Positions 16,907-64,000 of a stretch of 64,000 nt of DNA are shown in pieces. The notes under the pieces are model-generated. The model was not told the origin of the DNA. It worked only from the letters and a program-made list of their open reading frames with translations, and did no database searches. This stretch comes from Erigeron canadensis (lineage: Eukaryota; Streptophyta; Magnoliopsida; Asterales; Asteraceae). Each line of letters begins with the position of its first letter. The stretch's first letter is position 1. The stretch lies in NCBI RefSeq assembly GCF_010389155.1, contig NC_057761.1, forward strand, positions 57,224,587 to 57,288,586, in the 5' to 3' direction. Made by a program: the position numbers and the translations under genes.

Positions 16907-16911
16907 GCGGG

Positions 16912-16954
<43 letters not shown>

Positions 16955-16979
16955 ACGTGTTCGATCCACGTTCACCGCA
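16907..16979 (+). tRNA. tRNA-Phe (GAA)
   Basis: A 73-base cloverleaf with acceptor stem GCGGGGA pairing with the 3' end, D loop AGCTCAGTTGGGAGAGC, anticodon loop CTGAAGA with GAA at 16940-16942, and T arm with GTTCGATCC. There is no intron and no encoded CCA. Downstream CTTTTTA (from about 16982) is a plausible Pol III terminator. It matches the standard plant nuclear tRNA-Phe and appears functional. Confidence 0.96.
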
Positions 16980-38473: not shown

Positions 38474-40412
38474 ATGGGAAGAGCCCCTTGTTGTGACAAA
38501 GCAAATGTGAAGAAAGGGCCATGGTCTCCTGAGGAAGACGCAAAGCTTAAAGAATTCATTGACAAGTTTGGTACTGGTGGTAACTGGATTGCTCTCCCTC
38601 AAAAAGCTGGTATTTTAATTTAACCTTCTAGCTTCTTCATTGTTTCATGTAGCTAGTGTGACAACAACTTTTGTATATTAATAATTTACAAAAATAAGGA
38701 AAACAACAACTATATATATATATATATATGTATATGTGAATTACTAGCTACGTACTGCAGGTCTTAAAAGGTGTGGGAAGAGTTGCAGGTTAAGATGGCT
38801 AAACTATCTGAGGCCCAATATTCGACATGGTGAATTTTCTGATGATGAAGATAGGATCATTTGCAGCTTGTATGCTACCATTGGTAGCCGGTACGTCAAT
38901 CATCAATTATATATATATTACTGATATATGTAGGTCAAACACAATGTGTAAAATTTGAAGATTATATACGAACATGTGTTTATGTGATAGACGTAGAGAA
39001 ATTAAGATCGATAGAGAAAGAAAAGATAGTAAGATTGTGCCAGCTAATAGAAAATGATTGATTAATACAACTTTGGTAATTAATTAAAAAGATTCGACAA
39101 AGTCTTGACAACTATATATGGTGTATGTATATATAATGGAGTATTTATTTATGGGAATGCTAAATACAGCCCTAAGGGCTGTATTTAACGTGCATAAAAC
39201 AATTTGTACCTTCCGTATTAAAAGTCCACCCTTGATTTTCATGGTAAATGTACAAATAATTTATGCACCTTAAACACAGGCCTAAGGGCTGTATTTAGCA
39301 AACCCCTTTATTTATTTATTGAGCCAGCCAATTGGATGTTTTACGGTATTATTTATGGAAAGGTTAGTTACTAATTAAGTAATTAGATGTAAATTTCAAG
39401 TGTTACCTAAAATGTAGTATTACGGTGCAGATGGTCAGTAATAGCAGCTCAGCTACCAGGAAGGACTGACAATGATATCAAGAATTACTGGAACACCAAG
39501 CTCAAGAAGAAGCTCTTGACTATGTTTCCATCCACAACTCTTGTTCAAGAAAAACATCAAACTAATTTCTTTCCATCTACTATGTCCTCCTTACAACCAC
39601 CATTATTATTACCACATCAATATGATGATCTCAATAATAATAATACATCATCTCCTCATCATCAATTCTTGAACACTTCATCATCATCATCATCATTTTA
39701 CACTACTACTACTACTACTTTCTCCCCCACTAACAACTTCATGAATGTTGATCACAACACTACTAGTAATGCCAACTCGATTTTAGTTCATGATGATGAT
39801 CATCATGTTAACAATGTGATCATCAATGATCTTTCATCACCACATTCATCATCTCATCATGTAATTAACAGTTTGATGATGACCAACAACAACAACAACA
39901 TAGGTAGTGTTAATGATGATCATAACTCCCTATATAATAATCATCATAGTCCAATGCAAACAGAACAGTATCATAACATGAAGTTAGAAGGAATGCTCAT
40001 GTTTGGAACTCCCAGTACAAGTTGCTCTACTTCCTCTGAAGGTCTTCATCACCAGCCAAATCAGATCAAGCAAGAGAATCATGACCTGATAACTACTACC
40101 CTTCTTGATCATCATCATCATGTTCTTGGAGATGATCATCATACCCCTGCAGCTACTAGTTTCATGATGGATTATCACAAGCAAAATCATGAGTACATGA
40201 TCAAGAATAACCACCACAATGTAGGTCCCATAATATTAAATAGTAATAATAATAGTGCTAATAATGATCTGCTTGCAATGGAAGTGAATAAGCAACTGAT
40301 GATGAACTTGAGCAGCAGCTACTACTTGTTCAATCATGATGGTACTACTACTACTACTGATGAAACCAAGACAACACACTTTCAGAAAGGAATGTGTTCC
40401 TACTATTACTGA
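38474..40412 (+). CDS. R2R3-MYB transcription factor, subgroup 14 (RAX/Blind/MYB36-like)
   Basis: Three exons: 38474-38609, 38761-38890 and 39431-40412, with GT-AG introns in the conserved MYB positions, giving 415 aa. The first 116 residues are a complete R2R3 domain. It starts [20 protein letters not shown] and has regularly spaced Trp in R2, [15 protein letters not shown], the R3 helix [19 protein letters not shown], and [14 protein letters not shown], typical of subgroup 14. Family knowledge: members control axillary meristem initiation (RAX, tomato Blind) or endodermal Casparian strip formation (MYB36). Which role applies here cannot be decided from sequence. The C-terminal 300 residues are low complexity, with runs of Asn, His, Ser and Thr, and end KGMCSYYY. 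Intron 2 contains a MULE-type MITE. DNA-binding nuclear function is expected. Confidence 0.93.
39153..39306. mobile_element. MULE-type MITE in MYB intron 2
   Basis: A 154-bp element with inverted ends (GGGAATGCTAAATACAGCCC; from the right GGGGTTTGCTAAATACAGCC). Each end contains a small palindrome around AGCCCTAAGGGCT. Perfect 9-bp repeats TTTATTTAT flank it at 39144-39152 and 39307-39315. It has no coding capacity. Confidence 0.85.
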
Positions 40413-53699: not shown

Positions 53700-54398
53700 T
53701 GTTAGAATATGATCACGTAAAATGAACGTATGTCCGAAAAGTATTTAAGCCTACGGGGTCACACCTCAACGTGAATGTAACTATAACTAATTAATATATT
53801 AAATGTAATTTATTAATTAATTTGATCACGAAAAACTAACGGTCGTCTGTTAAATGTTAATAGTTAACGGTACTTAACTGGCGGACTTAACGGAGGAGAC
53901 AATTGTGATTAAATGAAAATTTAAGAAACCCTCTAGAATATTCCTAGAGGGGGGGGGGGGGGGACGGCCACTTTGAAGGGTTCTTAGAAAACCCTAAACT
54001 TGTTTTTCAAGCTAAAGTTTGGCTATAAATACAAACCCTTTTTTTAAGTTTTTCACACACACAATTATTAAGGTTTTCTAAAACCCTAAAATTCTCTCCT
54101 CCCCTCTCTCTCTTGGCTTCGGCTGTTCCACACAAAAACAAAGGGTTTTGGGTTTTGTTTGGTTCGTGTGAAAGGGTATTAACAAAGGGTTGTTTGTTCG
54201 TGATCAAGTACTAGCATACGTACGTTCCAACGTTGTGTGTGCAATCGTAGAGAGGTTAATTTAAACCTTGTTCTTGTTTTAATCTCTCCAATATGAGGTA
54301 CATATTCTATACTTTGGTTAATTAATAAAACTGCATAGATCTTGTCTTCCGTTGCGTGCTTTGTGATTTGATTTGATAAATAGTTATATAACCTAACA
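53700..54398 (+). repeat. Left (5') LTR of the copia element
   Basis: 699 bp with TG...CA ends. It contains a G run at 53949-53963, a TATA box (TATAAATA at 54024-54031) marking the likely U3/R transition, and a CT-rich stretch near 54,100. Compared with the right LTR it lacks a GC-rich block of about 190 bp near the end. Minus-strand frames across both LTRs are not genes. Confidence 0.93.
54024..54031 (+). promoter_or_regulatory. TATA box of the copia LTR promoter
   Basis: TATAAATA in the left LTR, conserved at the matching place in the right LTR (about 62,945-62,952). It lies about 370 bp before the LTR end, a plausible position for Pol II initiation of the retroelement transcript. Confidence 0.6.
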
Positions 54399-54399
54399 A

Positions 54400-54413
54400 T
54401 GGTATCACGAGCC
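54400..54413 (+). other. Primer binding site, initiator tRNA-Met type
   Basis: TGGTATCACGAGCC directly follows the LTR. It matches the usual copia site TGGTATCAGAGC except for one inserted base, and complements the 3' end of initiator tRNA-Met. Confidence 0.8.
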
Positions 54414-56147
54414 TACTATGTATGTTTTTTGATTACCAATAAATCAAAACTTGAAGGGGGGTTAGGGTTCTTGATTTAAAAAATTTCGATTATATATATA
54501 TATATTGTTAAATTGATTTTGTAATTTAATTACATTATTTAAATATGAAAAAAAGTTTTAATATATACATATATATATATATATGGATCGAAATTTTCCA
54601 GAAAATAAAAAAAATTGTTTTTTAGGGTTTCTAATCCAAGTTTTGATTAATTAAACATGTTTATGTGATAAATTGCATGTTTATATGTTGTACCTTTATT
54701 TTTAATGGTTAAAAAGAAGTAAAAATCATGAATTTTGATATGAAATCTTACTTAGATAAATTGCAAATTATTCATGATTCTTACTTAGATATATTGATAT
54801 GAAATCTTGATCATTAGGGTTTATTATGCTAGATAATTGAAGAATTAATTGTGTGACAATGTGATTATGCTTTGTGTGATTTTCTGTTTGACACCAGTTC
54901 ACTAAAACGAGCATAACTAATCAACCGTAATGAGTTGGAAGTCTAATTTTGGACAGTAGATGCATGACTCATAGGGCTACAACTTTCGTGTTTTGTGCTA
55001 AGCCCAGTTCGGCCTTCTTCAGGGCTAGAATTGGTCGACAAGCTGCTGGATTTTCCAGATCAGCATCTTGTAATTATGGTAGATAAATTTGTTATTATAT
55101 TTTTGGCTTACGCAATCAAGGAAACTTGATGTATGTGGTCTCTTTCCTTATGAAAGAGGAGCCAAATCTTATACCATAGTGACCATAATTAGGTTGATTA
55201 CCTTAATTGTTAAGTTGAAATTTAGTAAGTTACCTTAAATGTTAAGTTGTATATTTAGTAACTTACCTTAATTGTTAAGTTGTATTTTTAGTAAGTTTAT
55301 TATTTTGCATATTTATTGAGATATAAATTGTGATGCAAAATAGTTTTTGGAAAATATAAACTTGACTAAGTTATATCGAAATAGAGATTTTTTAATAAAA
55401 TTGGAGTCTTACAACCTTGAGATACACCGACTCACCCATTTGAACAAACTCTAAGAGAGGTATAAGTCGGAGTGCGCTAGCCTTCTAAAAGAGCGGGTTT
55501 TTAATTGCGTTCATTGCAAACCTTTGCCCTTGCGCTTCTTTGTGCGTTCAAATGGAGCTACCGAGCTCTCTTGTGTTGCTAAGACTATACAAATGATTTT
55601 ATTAAATATTATGTTTAGAAGATATGCATGAATCTTCGAAATATAACTTTTGATCACATATCAAATTGAATGATCCAATAAACTTAAGTCATTTGCCATC
55701 CAATTTGTCAAGGACACATGGGGTCGTTGTTTTACTCACTGGTACACAGTGGTGAAATGACAATTGCATGGCGAAACCCATTCACTGGTACACAGTGGTG
55801 GTCAATTTTGCACGTTCTTAGTTGGACGACTTAAAGCGAGTTAAGCGGTGAGACCTTGACCCGTGGCAAAAGATGGGACAAAACATGACTACAAAAGAAC
55901 ACTTGATGAATCGAGTGTCTTACGTAGGTCCCATACTTTCTAGGAATTGCACTTGTAATGCAATTATTGATCGTCACTTACCTTTTGAGTGTAATCATTT
56001 CTAGCAGATCAACTGATGAAATGGTTGCATGTCATTGGGATCCTAGACTTAATGAAATTAATTGTTTATTTTATAAACATTGGGTAATTAATTTCTTAAG
56101 GATTGATTATCGAAAATACTGATTTTTGAACTTAATCTGTTTTGTAG
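54414..56147 (+). other. Copia 5' leader, noncoding
   Basis: About 1.7 kb without a gene. It contains three tandem units of about 33 bp (55,197-55,295; TTACCTTAATTGTTAAGTTG type) and two copies of TTCACTGGTACACAGTGGTG-like palindromic sequence near 55,737 and 55,780. Long leaders are common in plant copia elements and may hold packaging signals, but this is inference. Confidence 0.6.
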
Positions 56148-57111
56148 ATGGCAATGAATCCCTCCACAAACACCAATACTTTTCGGCAAAAGTTTAAAAG
56201 AAAAGTTCTTTCTGGACAAAACTCAAATGATCTCATTCATAGACCGAGAATAGTTCTAAATGACTATGAAGTCCTTGATGAGGAGAGATCAGTTGTTCCA
56301 AGAATTGGTGCTGCAACTAATGAGTTGAGTGCAACCGATACCGCGTTTGGAAGGCAATGTTTATATGAATTGCATAAAGCAGTTTTTAGCCTACAACACG
56401 AGCAAGGAACACCAGTTGGACCTCATATACTGAAATTGAAAATGTATTTTGAGAAATTGAAAAAGCTGAATAATGCTTATGCTCCTCCATTTATGATTGG
56501 AATAATTCTCAAGTCACTTTCTAAGGATTTTGAGAGTTTTGTGAGCAACTATCATTTACATGGGACGGGTGATACCGTTACTGAACTCCATGCCATGATA
56601 ATTGAGTATGAAAAACAACTTCCAAAGAAAGTTCCAACACCCCAAGTTCTTGCAAACAAGGGGGAAAAGTCCAGAAAAGAAAACTACCAATCGCCAACGG
56701 CAATGAAATGCCTCTAACGAAAAAGGGTATACCGGCTAAAGATCAGAGCTGTCATTATTGTAATGAAGTCGGGCACTAGAAGAGGAACTGTCCTAAGTAT
56801 CTTGCCGAGTTGAACTCGAAGAAGAAGAATACTAGCGGCGCTAGTACTTCAGGTATCTTCACCATTGAATTATTTTCCTTAACTAAGCGTAAATCGTGGG
56901 TTTATGACATTGGTTGTGGAACTCACATCTGTAATGAATTACAGGGGCTTATGAAACGGAGGAAACTGAAGCCCGAAGCTTTGCAGTTGATAGTGGGCAA
57001 TGGTCTACCAGCAGTTGTTGAAGCGATTAGAGAATTTCATTTAGTTCTTCCTTCCGGTTTAATTATTGTTCTAGACAATTGTCATTATGCACCTTCTATT
57101 ACTAGAGGTGT
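56148..57111 (+). pseudogene. Copia gag and protease region, broken
   Basis: The frame at 56148-56717 is a gag of the UBN2 type (MKMYFEKLKKLNNAY-like middle, then LHAMIIEYEKQLPKKVPTPQ). After a stop, the zinc knuckle reads CHYCNEVGH, stop, KRNC, so the CCHC motif is interrupted. The following frame (56810-57111) has the protease region VYDIGCGTHIC, with Asp-Ile-Gly where active enzymes have Asp-Ser/Thr-Gly, and ends at SITRGV, where the nested LTR begins. It is not functional. Confidence 0.88.
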
Positions 57112-57795
57112 TGTAGATGCAGATTCATTGTGACAATCGCAATATAGATTTGATTATCGTTTATGTTTTAGGAACTTGTTTGTAATCATTTAAATAAGAA
57201 CTTGTGTTGATATTTAATGATTACGTTTGAACTTCAATATTATATCTATTTATGTTTTGTATTGTGTTTGTGTGTTATATATTGTTTTGCAGGTACAAGA
57301 ACATAGAATCAAGGTTTATAAGTGTCGTAGAACACTTAAACGATGATTGGATGTTATGTACGAGCCAAACGAAGTCAAACAAAGAGTCAAAGGCACGTCC
57401 CTCGTGCTGACGTCATCAGCATGAAGGATTACCCTCGTGCTGACGTCAGCACGAGGTGAATTGACTTATTGTTAATTCAGGCCTAATTACACGATTAAGG
57501 CAGAAGCCCACACAACCCAATACGTAACTAGTATAAATACAAGACCTAATCTACGAAATTAGGTGAATGATTGACGAATTCTTGATAGTTATTCACGAAT
57601 TTACGATCTAAGGTTATTTGTTCCTTCATGTGTTCTTCTACACGAACCACAAGCCTTGTGCATCTCCTTGGGTTGATTAATTACTTATTAATTAACAAAA
57701 GGCAATAGCAATCTAGTTATCTCAAGAGGATTCCGCACTCTTGACATGACGAATCGCATCTTATTACGATCTACGCAACAATAGGGCACCTTACA
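57112..57795 (+). repeat. Left LTR of the nested element
   Basis: 684 bp, TG...CA. It contains two palindromic TGACGTCA sites. The one at 57433-57456 is a perfect 24-bp palindrome with arms CCTCGTGC and GCACGAGG. AGTATAAATACAAG at about 57,530 is a probable TATA region. Confidence 0.7.
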
Positions 57796-58366
57796 AGTGG
57801 TATCAGAGCGGGGGAAACGATTTTGCTTTCAATTGCGATCTTTATTGAAGATTTTCTGCTGAATTCGTGGCTTAATTCCTGAAGATGATGAAATTCGTGT
57901 GTAACTTCGTGCTTACATCAGCACGAAGAGAGTTTTGCATCGTGCTTACATCAGCACGAACTCTGTTCTTCACGTGTATTTCACGACTTCGTGCTTACAT
58001 CAGCACGAAGTGGATCAAGTTCACGATAATGTCACCACGAGTTCATGGACAAGATATCATGAATTTTGATTAAGTTCGTGTATACGTCATCACGAAGAGG
58101 ACTTTCCCTCGTGCTGACGTCACCACGAAGATAATCACATTTTTATGATCAAGTTCGTGTATACGTCATCACAAAGAGGACTTTCCCTCATGCTGACATC
58201 ACACGAAGATAATCACATAATTCATATCAAGTTCGTGCTTACGCCATGCCTTAGTATTCCTTACTTCGCGCTGACGTCATGTTGAAGATGATATGTCGAT
58301 CTGAAGCAAGTTCGCGCTTATGCCATCACGTAGAGGTTTGTCCCACGTGCTTGCATTAACACGAAG
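57401..58366 (+). repeat. Array of imperfect palindromes centred on TGACGTCA or variants
   Basis: About a dozen sites of the form TTCGTGCTxACxTCAxCACGAAG occur at about 57401, 57433, 57905, 57940, 57978, 58074, 58108, 58153, 58188, 58230, 58264, 58310 and 58343. Two adjacent sites with their spacers form a unit of about 69 bp (AAGTTCGTGTATACGTCATC onward) repeated at 58072-58140 and 58151-58219. The core TGACGTCA is a bZIP/TGA-factor type site. Function is inferred only. Confidence 0.85.
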
Positions 58367-59881
58367 ATGTCTACTTTCTTGTTTGAATCTTATAACAAGA
58401 AACAGATCGAGTAAAGAGGTTCTAAGTTGTGTGCATCCATATTCAAAGAAGCACACAAAACAAGGTAGTAGAAACACCAAAAAAAATAAATAAAAAACAG
58501 GAAAAATAATTTTTGCCCATGGTCTTAAAATGGTATGATTCATGGAGATTTGAAGTTTGGTAGCGTTCGAAAAATTTTCGGTTCATTTGTGCGTTTTCGG
58601 CACGTTTTGGATGAAAATTTTCGGCAATTATCAAAATTTTCCCACAGTCTTATTAATAAAAATTTACGTGAATACCAATGTTTCACGTAAATGTGTTTTC
58701 CCATGAAAATTTGGAGGGAAAACGGGTATACCCTGTTTGGCGAAGAGCTCTAAACGTCGTGAGCTCTAAGCATTTTTTAAGAACCTCAAGAATGAGAGAT
58801 ACAGTAACCTATGATAGGCTGATTTTCAGAGTATTTGCAGAGAAAAGGGGGGAATAAAAAAGGTTGTTCTTCGGTGGAATAAAAATTTCAAGGTTGTTCT
58901 TCGATGAGATTTCTTCGGTTTTCTCAGCAAAACTCTGCAGGTTGTAGAATTTACGCAGAAATAAGGGGGAATATAACGATTCTTTCGAATTTCTCAGAAT
59001 AATTCTGCAATTACTCGAGTTATATTAGCAGCAAGGGTGTTACTCAAAGTGTTACTCAGCTCAGATTAGTGATCAAAGAGTTATTCTGTTCGGCTTAACA
59101 AATTGATAGTGTCATTTTTAAAATACTCGAGTAATGAAGATCATAGTGTTTTCAGTCTTGATTAACACTGTTCAATAAATGATCTTCTATATAGCAGTTA
59201 TGGAAGCTTTTGTCGAAGTATTGGAGCAATGAAGATACGGGACATAGCTGAAACTTTGTTGAAGTATTGAAATGATGAAGCTGGTTATTTGTTGTTTGAG
59301 TATTTGAAGATTGAACCTATCTATATTCCATGATGTAAGGATAATAATCAGGCGATATATAAGTTTCATTGCGAGATTAAGGTCTTTATGTGATTGGCGG
59401 TTTATATAACTGAAGGGAAGATCCGATAAGAAAGACTTCAGGTGATTAGTAGAGTCGTGGAGATACAAAACGGAGTTTTGATGCTGCTATAGTTGAGACA
59501 GGGTCTATGGTATTACATTTTTGTGATGCAGGTTGTAGAGTTTCTTATCTTTGTGATAGCTGGTTGATTTGATGCTGATTGTTGGAAATTCAACTTCTCT
59601 ATTATATGTCGATTAGGCAAGGAGAGCGACAATCCTAAGTGGAAGGTGGCAATGCTTAATTCGGAGGTGGTTAACTGTTGAGGGGGAGAACTACAATGAG
59701 ATGTGTTGGGTTAGTTGGTTGTCATAGAGGGACAGGGATTTTGCAGTTTGAAGATCAGGATGCAATGTTAGAAGATCGAGTTTCAACAAGAAGACTCGAT
59801 GTCATCAGCTAAGGGGGAGCCAGTGGATTCAGGTTTTTCAGTAGCTATTGATTATCGGAGTTCATCTAGAATTGATTGCAA

Positions 59882-59897
59882 CGGAAAAGGGGGAGTC
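59882..59897 (+). other. Polypurine tract of the nested element
   Basis: CGGAAAAGGGGGAGTC lies directly before the second inner LTR. Similar AAGGGGGAG words occur at about 59,690 and 59,812, typical of copia-like elements. Confidence 0.65.
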
Positions 59898-60399
59898 TGT
59901 AGATGCAATTTATGAGCATCTATTGTTGTCCGTCGCAATGCAATTCTATAGGTTGATTATGAAGAATAAAGGATGTCTTCAAGGTCGTGATGACGTCATC
60001 ACGAGGTAATGATGACGTCAACACGAGGCATTTGGTTCGTGTGAAGGAAGTCGAAGCCCATGAACAAGATAGAAGCCCAGCCCGTGAAGCAACCTATATA
60101 TATACTAGAATTAGGTTACAATTTGGAGAAAAAATGGTTTAGGTCTAGACAGAAACTATTCATCTTGCACGGGGTAGAGATCTATACCCCGTGCTAGTCA
60201 AATGTATACTGATTTGGTGTAATATTCATATGATTAATGATATTCATGAGTTTTACATCTGTATTTATCTCTTATTCTTCATGTAATTCGTGTTTATATG
60301 TCCATTAATTATACAGAAACCTCAAAGTCGATTATGAATGGATTCCGCACTTTCATAGTCGAATTGATCACGATTTGAACGATCCGACGTGTTTTAACA
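59898..60399 (+). repeat. Right LTR of the nested element
   Basis: 502 bp. It begins TGTAGATGCAATTTATG and ends TTTTAACA. It contains a perfect 20-bp palindrome at 59985-60004 (half-site TCGTGATGAC) and a second site at 60011-60027. It is strongly diverged from the left inner LTR apart from its ends and shared motifs. Confidence 0.6.
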
Positions 60400-60401
60400 C
60401 G

Positions 60402-61780
60402 TGGCGAAAGGTTATACTCAACGTTTCGGTGTTGATTATGATGAAACCTTTTCTCCAGTTGCGAACATTAGAGCTATTAGGATTCTCTTAGCCATAGCAG
60501 CGTACTATGACTTTGAGATATGACAAATGGATATTAAGACTGCCTTCTTAAATGGTTACTTGGTTGAAGAAGTCTATATGGATCAACCGGAAGGTTTTAT
60601 TGATCCAAAACATCCTAACAAAGTATGCAAGCTTCAAAGGTCCATTTATGGACTAAAGCAAGCATTAAGAAGTTGGAATAAATGGTTTGATGAAGAAATC
60701 AAAAAGTTTGGTTTTGTTCAAAATCCCTATGAGCCATGTGTATATCGCAAAGCTAGTGGGAGTAATGTTACTTTCCTTGTCTTATATGTCGATGACATAT
60801 TAATCATAGGAAAACACGTTCCAATGTTGCAAGATGTTAAATCCCATCTTGGAAAGTGTTTTGCCATGAAAGATTTAGGTTAAGCGGCATTTATTCTTGG
60901 AATCAAGATCTACCGAGATAGATCAAGGCGATTAATTGGACTAAGTCAAAGTGCTTATATTGATAAGATCTTGAAGCGATTCAAGATGGAGAACTCTAAG
61001 CGTGGGTCTATACCTATGCAAGAAGGACTTAGTTTATCTGTCAAACAAGGTGCTACTACGCCTAGTGAGGTGGAGCGTATGAGTAGAATTCCTTATGCTT
61101 CGGCTGTGGGATCTATTATGTATGCTGTTAGATGCACTAGACCCGATGTGGCGTTCGCGCAAAACTTCATTAGCCGATATCAACAGAATCCTGGTGAAAG
61201 TCTTTGGATTGCTGTTAAAAATATTCTGAAGTACCTACGAGCTACTAAAGATATATTTTTGGTGTATGGAGGAAATCCAGACTTAAAGCTCAAAGTGACC
61301 GGATACTGTGATGCTGGATTTCAAACTGATAAAGATGACACGAAGTCTCAATCAGGATTCGTCTTCGTTCTGAACGGAGGAGCTGTGGACTGGAAAAGCA
61401 AGAAGCAAACCACAGCTGCCATGTCTGCAACAGAGTTAGAGTACATTGCCGCCTCAGAAGCCGCAATGGAAGCAGTCTGGATAAGGAAGTTCATTAGCGG
61501 GCTTGACGTGATCCCCTAAAATGAATTACCCACTGATTTGTACTGTGATAATACCGGTGCATTAATCATTGCCAACGAACCCGGAGTTCAGAAAGGTGCC
61601 AGACATTATGCTACACGATATCACTATGTTCATGAGTAGATCGAACTAGGGGAGATCAATTTACTCAAAGTTCACACAGATTTTAACTTAGCTAATCCTT
61701 CCACAAAAGCTTTGTCTAGGCCCAAGCTTGAAAGGCATGTCGATGGCATAGGACTTAAATTAGCTAGTTATTTCATGTAA
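60402..61780 (+). pseudogene. Copia reverse transcriptase and RNase H, broken
   Basis: It begins inside the RT at KGYTQRFGVDYDETFSPVAN, followed by [13 protein letters not shown], the active-site block [10 protein letters not shown], and the RNase H region with SATELEYIAASEAAMEAVWI and a late KALSRPKLERH-like end. In-frame stops interrupt it after YDFEI, after AMKDLG, after GLDVIP and after YHYVHE. The N-terminal RT blocks and all of integrase are missing. It is a relic that cannot make an active polymerase. Confidence 0.92.
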
Positions 61781-62622
61781 ATCTGTTGTTTCAGTATTTG
61801 GATAAGGGATGTTAAACAATTTATATTTTCTATAATGAAATAAAGTACTTGATATGTTTGATTTCTCTCAATATTAAATTGTGTCCTATATTTGCATGTT
61901 TAATTCTTGAAAATTTTATTATTAAATATTCTAAATTGTCCATTGTTGATTAATTATATGGGAATATAATTAAACAAAGACAAATGTGAGTGATTGGTTA
62001 TATTCTTGGAATATGTAATGGATGGTTCCCACCAAACTCACATGATATCCATAGCGGATGCATATCGGACTACCCCACTAACGAATTATCACTTTATGGA
62101 TCATCGTCATTAAGTGAAATTCGTAAATGGTTACTTTTATTGATCCTTTGACTTGAGATACAAGTAGGTCAGCATGTATGAATCGCACTTAGTAGATGTA
62201 GTTCTAACTCACCTGAATAAGGGGGTACATAAAGGGCTATTTTCAGAAAGTGTCGTGAAGTATGATGACTGACACGTGTAGTCAATATTAGATTTGTTCC
62301 TTCAATTTGAAATTGAAGCATGATACCGTTTGGCGCCCTCATTAGGACTAATTAAAGATGTTTGCATGACCGTGCCCAAATAAATCCAGATGGTTCTCGA
62401 TTATATTTGGTAATCATTAATTAGTTATAGAATGAGAAACATAATCGTTAAATTATGAAATGACCTCGATCCATATTCATATTTAACTAAGGTATCTGAA
62501 CAAAGGGATAATAAATGACTTAACCGTTTAAAACAATACTTAAATCTTTTCGGGAGCATTGGCGTGTTGCTATACGCTAACCAATGTTATTACCTTCATT
62601 CGTTACGAGCTCAAGTGGGAGC
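61781..62622 (+). other. Copia 3' noncoding region with polypurine tract
   Basis: A noncoding stretch between the RNase H end and the right LTR. The final AAGTGGGAGC (62613-62622) is the polypurine tract that primes plus-strand synthesis. Confidence 0.75.
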
Positions 62623-63509
62623 TGTTAGAATATGATCACGTAAAATGAACGTATGTCCGAACAGTATTTAAGCCTACGGGGTCACACCTCAACGTGAATG
62701 TAACTATAATTAATTAATATATTAAATGTAATTTATTAATTAATTTGATCACGAAAAACTAACGGTCGTCTGTTAAATGTTAATAGCTAACGGTACTTAA
62801 CTGACGGATTTAACGGAGGAGACAATTGTGATTAAATGAAAATTTAAGAAACCCTCTAGAATATTCCTAGAGGGGGGGGGGGGGACGGCCACTTTGAAGG
62901 GTTTTTAGAAAACCCTAAACTTGTTTTTCAAGATAAAGTTTGGCTATAAATACAAACCCTTTTCTTAAGTTTTTCACACACACAATTATTAAGGTTTTCT
63001 AAAACCCTAAAATTCTCTCCTCCTCTCTCTCTCTTGGCTTCGGTCGTTCCACACAAAAACAAAGGGTTTCGGGTTTTGTTTGGTTCGTGTGAAAGGGTAT
63101 TAACAAAGGGTTGTTTGTTCGTGATCAAGTACTAGCATACGTACGTTCCAACGTTGTGTGTGCAATCGTAGAGAGGTTAATTTAAACCTTGTTCTTGTTT
63201 TAATCTCTCCAATATAAGGTACATATTCTATACTTTGGTTAATTAATTAAACTGTATAGATCTTGTCCTTTCCCTAATATGAACCTTGAGTCATCTACGC
63301 GACTGGCGCTTCAAAAGGCGAAACTCTCGTCGTAGTTTGGCGACCTAAGGGGCGGACACTTTTTGTTATCTAAAGGCGAAGACTCTGAAGTGGGCGAACA
63401 CTCGGCCCAGCGGGCGAACATGCCGGGCTCCGCGCACCTGCTGACACCTTTCGAAGCACTTTTTAGGTGCTTTGTGATTTGATTTGATAAATAGTTATAT
63501 AGCCCAACA
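62623..63509 (+). repeat. Right (3') LTR of the copia element
   Basis: 887 bp. It is nearly identical to the left LTR over about 665 bp, then carries an extra GC-rich block of about 190 bp (63,268-63,460) before the shared GTGCTTTGTGATTTGATTTG end. The G run is 13 long here against 15 in the left LTR. Confidence 0.92.
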
Positions 63510-63557: not shown

Positions 63558-64000
63558 TCTTAATATATACTATAAGACGGTTGAACTAATGACTTATTAA
63601 CCAATCAAATTGCTTAATTTTATCAAATTGACTCTCGCTTATGTCATCATTTAGATTAACTATAAATTAAAAAATCCTAATAATCATTATCCAAATATAC
63701 TATTATATTAATATTTATATTAATTTGTAAAAAAAAAGTCTCATTAATTTACATTTTTTTGTTTTCCATCAATAATTTATACTTTTGAGCCCTGAAAATT
63801 CAACTTATATATATTTTTAACCATCAACTTGAGAAGTTTTTTTGTATATATATTTAATTTTAATAATCAACATGATAATTTTATTTTAGAATTACAATAT
63901 TTATATATTTAGTTTTTTAAAGTTATAATCGTCACTCAAATCAAGAGTTCTAATTGTTATCAAAGAATATGAAAAACAATCCTAATTGTTATCTAATTAT
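63558..64000 (+). mobile_element. Putative Helitron 5' end, continues past the window
   Basis: TCTTAATATATACTATAAGA preceded by A resembles the 5' start of a widespread plant Helitron group, and the following GACTTATTAACCAATCAAAT and TTATGTCATCATTT are consistent with it from memory. The 3' end is outside the window. Confidence 0.4.

Follow-up and report, generated by a model that had tools for sequence, protein, structure and literature searches.

Among Ty1/copia retrotransposons, the closest described counterparts of the locus considered here are the palindromic repeated motif (RM) boxes in the long terminal repeats (LTRs) of Sireviruses, which precede the TATA box in 13 of 21 Sireviruses and are lacking in the other 8 of the 21 (Bousios et al. 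2010, PMC2829016). That paper on Sirevirus palindromes was unable to name any one protein as their common binding partner. Extra boxes are described there upstream of the envelope gene, and the Results of that paper report none in the 5′ leader. In the present study we analysed 64,000 nucleotides of Erigeron canadensis DNA (NC_057761.1, positions 57,224,587 to 57,288,586; the window), in which an inner LTR element at 57112-60399, nested in an outer Ty1/copia element, carries 16 related palindromic sites (57402-60026): two in its 5′ LTR, twelve in its 5′ leader and two in its 3′ LTR. The sites resemble the Sirevirus boxes in being palindromic, repeated, CpG-containing and placed upstream of the TATA box of a Ty1/copia element; the two per LTR are joined here by the twelve of the leader. 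The two LTRs are of different types, A at the 5′ end and B at the 3′ end. An earlier statement that no element of this layout had been described is too strong, considering the TATA-upstream palindromic motifs published for Sireviruses (PMC2829016).

We regard as fairly probable an account in which a Sirevirus-like cis-regulatory motif of a Ty1/copia element, present as a pair in the unique 3′ region (U3) of the LTR, was amplified to a leader array, is bound by host basic leucine zipper (bZIP) proteins, and came to stand in hetero-LTR copies by transfer between A and B elements. A palindrome of ~22 bp around an ACGTCA/TGACGTCA core occurs as a pair in U3, ~70-76 bp ahead of the TATA box; in the non-autonomous family B, copies of the two-site module follow the primer-binding site as six units with twelve sites, which in this account arose by amplification. 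The sites would bind dimeric host bZIP proteins, of which the TGA class is the natural candidate, and may act as a promoter-proximal enhancer to which the leader array adds further sites. TGACG/TGACGTCA is the core of TGA-class bZIP targets, and the TGACGTCA core of this array is what we take to be a textbook bZIP site. Considering the core sequence, with six full cores in the window, TGA-class binding of the sites is plausible.

The palindromes, of which some 15 had been noted in a preliminary description of this DNA, proved to be real. Each of the six occurrences of TGACGTCA in the window falls inside the array region, where 0.44 would be expected by chance. A weight matrix trained on 15 of the 16 sites and then scanned over the window returned its training sites as the top 15 (20.4-35.5 bits), the sixteenth site at 58188 scoring 12.4 bits, slightly under an outside place at 63633 (13.0 bits). 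A more permissive 20-mer search, in which as many as 3 mismatches were allowed, placed 23 of its 24 strand-matches in the array region and 1 at 40187 (0.27 expected). Searches of IMG/VR for the exact palindromes gave 0 stretches and 1 stretch, the latter taken as chance. Both perfect palindromes reported earlier, of 24 and 20 bp, are present, as are the sites in the two flanking LTRs and in the 5′ noncoding part, except that these inner LTRs do not form a matching pair; the 69-bp tandem unit claimed before gives way to a period of 79 (Tandem Repeats Finder), with six units of two sites. The individual features are:

57402 to 57421, plus strand: U3 palindrome 1, with a full TGACGTCA core and a diverged right arm; a site is found here in 39 of 39 A-type loci
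57433 to 57456, plus strand: U3 palindrome 2, perfect over 24 bp; its inner 20 bp are a perfect palindrome in 19 of 39 A-type loci
57907 to 58364, plus strand: leader array of 12 sites in six units that start 78-87 bp apart
57907 and 57940, 57989 and 58021, 58076 and 58109, 58155 and 58188, 58233 and 58266, 58312 and 58345, plus strand: site pairs of the leader
59985 to 60004, plus strand: 3′ LTR palindrome 1, perfect over 20 bp
60007 to 60026, plus strand: 3′ LTR palindrome 2, 22 bp further along; 13 of 20 B loci have a pair with this spacing

The sites are organized as two-site modules with partners 32-33 bp apart, one module in the 5′ LTR and six in the leader (tandem unit ~79 bp), unlike the 3′ LTR pair with its spacing of 22 bp. 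Over 60 bases, the 5′ LTR pair and the leader unit most like it are 77% identical, so that the LTR module and the leader array probably share descent. The full TGACGTCA is kept in 4 of 4 LTR sites of the window versus 2 of 12 leader sites (Fisher 0.008, for sites that are not independent).

Related copies were retrieved from an assembly of 426 Mb in 356 contigs. The A set was obtained with 57381-57830 as query, and comprised the best 40 of 1433 candidates scored, window included, the other 39 being fetched. The leader as query gave the B set of 47 matches (window included) from the best 40 of 239 candidates scored, and 20 B loci with a full or near-full leader match were fetched, hence selected by their similarity to the array. 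Within these sets, the U3 pair occurs at spacing 33 in 39 of 39 A-type loci (two of which, L023 and L024, overlap), and the array recurs in related copies as 10-12 leader sites in each of the 20 fetched B loci. Downstream of the leader, four of five B loci examined continue towards the 3′ LTR, L081, L082 and L083 doing so in two or three pieces and L080 matching 58599-60399 unbroken at 92% and without coding insertion, and L079 diverges after 58991. The LTRs of ordinary B elements match each other, own LTR pairs being 94-99% identical over at least 300 aligned bases in 12 of 19 other B loci. With 10-12 sites in all 20 copies and, in L080, a body devoid of coding insertion, the array is, as judged from the copies aligned, a feature of a noncoding family B that has many members.

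The A-type copies present a different picture. Of the 39 loci, 23 showed leader sites, with two sites in 20, one in 2 and four in 1; the last copy (L030, G000 C5:22075557-22078057) has its four sites at a 34-bp period and is possibly a step towards an array. As a rule, A-locus matches end at the primer site (57809) where one follows; the exceptions are L019 and L030, which match the A LTR and continue into the leader at 89% and 87%, respectively. One locus (L036) matches only 57383-57801 of the A-type region. Coding frames were present in both A loci examined downstream, namely for zinc knuckle, integrase and RVT_2 in L084 and for RVT_2 in L085. In A-type copies (L125-L131), open frames of at least 90 codons lie within 2.5 kb upstream of the 3′ LTR, where some Sireviruses carry an envelope-like gene.

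How the sites vary bears directly on what they might be. A protein-binding site is expected to conserve its core, an RNA stem to conserve or compensate its arms. The preliminary description had held that the arms change together, and no excess of paired changes emerged to uphold this, whether among the 16 sites in comparison with shuffles or across copies. Among the 16 sites, arms pair like randomly dealt arms (118 of 176 pairs versus a mean of 117.8), and two further tests agree. Across copies, there were 37 one-sided changes versus 0 re-paired double changes in U3 (39 A loci and the window) and 104 versus 1 in the leader (20 B loci and the window); the double changes of any kind expected under independence are 0.72 and 3.86, respectively. 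Divergence is low, which limits the power of this test to see compensation. Divergence from the column majority at non-CpG positions was 0.0243 in leader sites and 0.0499 in the remaining leader, with 1 of 530 mask rotations as low, and within the leader sites it was 0.0181 in cores and 0.0293 in arms. CpG positions, present in cores and arms alike, change faster everywhere. At 9 of the 12 leader sites, ACGTCA is retained in the core of the family majority. Because leader sites are half as divergent as the remaining leader, with cores least divergent, and paired changes are missing, the pattern of a conserved core with uncompensated arms favours a two-fold-symmetric protein-binding site over an RNA stem. 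Of the two possibilities offered in the preliminary description, two-fold-symmetric binding would thus be retained, and selection for hairpins is left without covariation support. A hairpin in each LTR (57718-57750 and 60326-60364) has the same loop, GATTCCGCA, and arms that differ yet still pair; it would seem to be one place where arms do change together.

In an RNA-based explanation, the leader palindromes behind the primer-binding site would be hairpins with self-complementary loops for dimerisation and packaging, multiplied by the non-autonomous family to compete for the particles of a helper. The position in the leader agrees with it, as does the folding of the leader RNA, examined here as had been proposed, at -190.9 kcal/mol (z -5.84 versus 20 shuffles); the sites at 57907, 57940 and 57989 form stable hairpins, those at 58076 and 58109 weaker ones. 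Kissing loops at the 5′ end of Ty1 RNA are, moreover, described as a packaging device (PMC5454406). Against this stand the core (loop) columns being more conserved than the arm (stem) columns, the lack of compensatory changes and the occurrence of the same palindromes upstream of the TATA box in U3, and we consider the RNA role unlikely. Folding as such cannot separate the protein and RNA readings, since any transcribed palindrome folds.

Alternatively, the array might be a functionless minisatellite that arose from slippage, its palindromes serving mainly as templates for host small RNAs. The unit structure and the A-type leaders with their 1-4 sites, four of them at the 34-bp period in L030, would suit such an origin, and palindrome-rich Sirevirus LTR regions are reported as small-RNA hotspots in maize (PMC10760457, PMC5311732). 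Leader sites half as divergent as the sequence between them, in a layout common to diverged copies, speak against it, and of the explanations for the array we find this one the least probable.

Several observations nevertheless weigh against protein binding as the reason for the array. Constraint in U3 is weak (0.0200 in sites, 0.0388 in the rest, 21 of 276 mask rotations as low). The half-site core is kept in 3-8 of 12 leader sites per B copy, and in 4 of 12 in the window, so that no copy has all of its sites intact. The copies of the site within the array, like the copies of the family, are not independent of one another. Finally, folding of the leader far above shuffles is what an RNA role would predict too.

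The anatomy of the inner element is that of a non-autonomous LTR element, with LTRs, primer-binding site, polypurine tract, several copies and no recognised gag-pol: comparison of four of its open reading frames with Pfam gave no gag, pol or integrase match, and a search with a translated leader frame gave no candidate. Besides the palindromes, it comprises:

57112 to 57795, plus strand: 5′ LTR, type A; whole-LTR match in 36 of 39 A-type loci at 91-97%
57532 to 57539, plus strand: TATA box of the 5′ LTR, TATAAATA, 76 bp after the palindromes
57729 to 57737, plus strand: GATTCCGCA hairpin loop of the 5′ LTR, with its counterpart in the 3′ LTR at 60341
57794 to 57809, plus strand: LTR end and primer-binding site, CA-AGTGG-TATCAGAGC, where type A switches to type B
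58371 to 59887, plus strand: internal region in which no gag or pol was recognised; B copies have the same region
59681 to 59688 and 59812 to 59819, plus strand: upstream polypurine octamers, AGGGGGAG
59853 to 59887, plus strand: left arm of an inverted repeat adjoining the terminal polypurine tract
59888 to 59895, plus strand: terminal polypurine tract, which begins 10 bp ahead of the 3′ LTR
59898 to 60399, plus strand: 3′ LTR, type B, grouping with B copies
60095 to 60104, plus strand: TATA box of the 3′ LTR, 69 bp downstream of the palindromes

Compared with the features published for Sireviruses (PMC2829016), the element has several AGGGGGAG tracts (59681, 59812 and 59888, the only ones on the two strands of the window), a terminal tract that begins exactly 10 bp before the 3′ LTR (59888 to 59898), an inverted repeat whose left arm adjoins that tract, and the junction CA-A(T/G)TGG-TATCAGAGC, read as CAAGTGGTATCAGAGC at 57794; many B copies read AACATGGTATCAGAGC at the junction of 5′ LTR and primer site in place of CAAGTGGTATCAGAGC. 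It departs from them in its attachment site, which is TC/TG in the window and in 9 of 9 A copies listed instead of AT/TG, in its palindrome core, ACGTCA/TGACGTCA instead of CGG-CCG, and in lacking the C-rich integrase signal of 17 of 21 Sireviruses (PMC2829016), no CCC run being read in the last ~45 bases of either LTR. Searches with two Sirevirus-type patterns gave 0 matches. The CGG-CCG core is likewise absent from Tnd-1, a Sirevirus (PMC2829016). On the strength of polypurine tracts, inverted repeat and primer junction, with attachment dinucleotide, palindrome core and C-rich signal disagreeing, we refer to the inner element as a putative non-autonomous, Sirevirus-like Ty1/copia element.

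The two inner LTRs were considered, and rejected, as one old pair. Their global identity of 68.4% equals the shuffled level (mean 67.1%), local alignment is confined to ~190 bp including palindromes and TATA box, and they fall into different copy groups. The inverted-repeat arm, in addition, pairs with the 3′ LTR alone (-25.7 kcal/mol, 0.002 of 500 shuffles), the value for the 5′ LTR (-14.4 kcal/mol, 0.346 of shuffles) meaning no pairing. Within each of 7 A copies compared, pairing of the arm is stronger with the copy's own LTR (-20.4 to -22.2) than with the B LTR (-12.2 to -14.2), figures to be read beside the lowest of 200 shuffles per copy, which reached -21.3 to -24.1. In the window copy, then, a 5′ LTR of type A meets a body and 3′ LTR of type B at the primer-binding site. 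B loci match the window from 57790-57828 onward, except for L065, which matches from 57112 and is the only one with an A-type 5′ LTR among 39 other leader loci (20 of the first set and 19 further), in whose LTR typing L067 gave no LTR match and some others partial ones. In the 5′ LTR of L065 (with L082/L105; G000 C5, ~11986305-11990250, minus strand), 618 of 649 aligned bases agree with those of the 5′ LTR in the window. The 3′ LTR of L065 is of type B, with identities of 85.5-89.5% to LTRs from L059, L066 and L068, 74.3% to the 3′ LTR in the window and 66.6% to the 5′ LTR there. Since the 3′ LTR of L065 is of another B subtype than the window's, the comparison suggests that the two copies derive from separate events.

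The LTRs of an element are normally renewed to identity at each transposition, so that two different LTRs in one insertion call for an exchange. The hetero-LTR layout suggests that, in the course of reverse transcription, a strand was transferred from one element to another: the plus-strand strong-stop DNA of an A molecule packaged together with a B molecule would move to the B minus strand at the primer-binding site, and the product would comprise an A LTR, a B body and a B LTR. From its arrangement, the window copy most likely arose in this way. Recombination of packaged RNA is known for plant elements, and second-strand transfer is described as using primer-site microhomology (PMC12786077). 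It is possible, and we propose it tentatively, that a non-autonomous family not only turned the bZIP-type site of its promoter into a twelve-site array but also repeatedly gains a 5′ LTR, promoter included, from its autonomous partner when the second strand transfers between molecules at the primer-binding site, so that single insertions end up with two unlike LTRs.

A competing origin of the window copy, to which we give appreciable but less than even credence, is that two insertions nested in the outer element were fused by recombination or deletion. The flanks of the insert do not match (GGTGT and CGTGG), and the outer element lacks its integrase stretch, both as expected from such a fusion. 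However, L065 has the same order of A 5′ LTR, B body and B 3′ LTR with ATCAA, read by eye, on both outer flanks; and in both copies the switch lies at, or a few bases from, the primer-binding site, around which the A and B leaders otherwise have little in common. In a flank test of eight loci, perfect 5-bp duplications were found in four (L061, L066, L069 and L074); L070 had 3 of 5 bases, L071 and L072 1 of 5, and L073 none. A query across the left junction matched 39 other places only from query base 67-73, equivalent to 57106-57112, so that among the best 40 matches the window alone spans the junction. An assembly error at the window locus or at L065 is another possible source of the layout.

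The outer element (53700-63168) consists of two parts:

53700 to 57111, plus strand: left part of the outer Ty1/copia element (LTR repeat, gag and start of pol), interrupted by the inner element
60400 to 63168, plus strand: outer Ty1/copia element, resuming inside reverse transcriptase, with RVT_2 at 60524-60883

Its LTR direct repeats, 53700-54247 and 62623-63168, are 97-98% identical, and a longer local alignment gives 688 of 726. The left part has a Retrotran_gag_2 match and a Pol_BBD match under its cut-off (Pfam), and the reverse transcriptase is closest to Tanacetum proteins. The integrase stretch is missing at the insertion (57112-60399), and the insert has no flanking 5-bp duplication. 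A 33-bp tandem repeat of 3.1 copies inside the outer element (55198-55297) is free of the palindromes. A tRNA-Phe gene (16907-16979) is the only Rfam match in the window at gathering thresholds.

The combination of a bZIP-type core, constrained leader columns and a comparison between U3 and leader makes the binding question directly testable. If the transfer reading is true, hetero-LTR copies are natural evidence of swaps of LTR and promoter between elements at the primer-binding site, and such swaps would mislead dating by LTR divergence.

Lastly, the element can be placed among other known systems. Non-autonomous LTR elements of the type of large retrotransposon derivatives (LARD) or terminal-repeat retrotransposons in miniature (TRIM) have LTRs, a primer-binding site, a polypurine tract and a noncoding interior, to which the window element adds a palindrome array in the leader. 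Clustered protein-binding sites in an untranslated leader are found in the copia leader enhancer and the gypsy leader insulator of Drosophila, animal elements for which we claim no homology with the window element. An activator of the copia leader is named in PMC2829016. The BII boxes in U3 of Tnt1 are likewise promoter sites of a Ty1/copia element, and are reported to bind defence-induced factors there; the likeness is one of description, and binding is reported for Tnt1 and predicted here (PMC3316501). Maize Sirevirus LTRs have a cis-regulatory region rich in palindromes (Bousios et al. 2016, as referred to in PMC10760457 and PMC5311732), which is, likewise, a foldable palindrome cluster; it has another motif (CACCGGAC...GTCCGGTG) and small-RNA data, and the window array is known from sequence. 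In the open-licence literature, no plant LTR element with a TGACGTCA palindrome array was found, and we do not claim its absence from print. In comparison with the known Sireviruses, what sets the present element apart, as far as its copies indicate, is its bZIP-type TGACGTCA core, an array in the leader of a non-autonomous family, and copies whose two LTRs are of different types.

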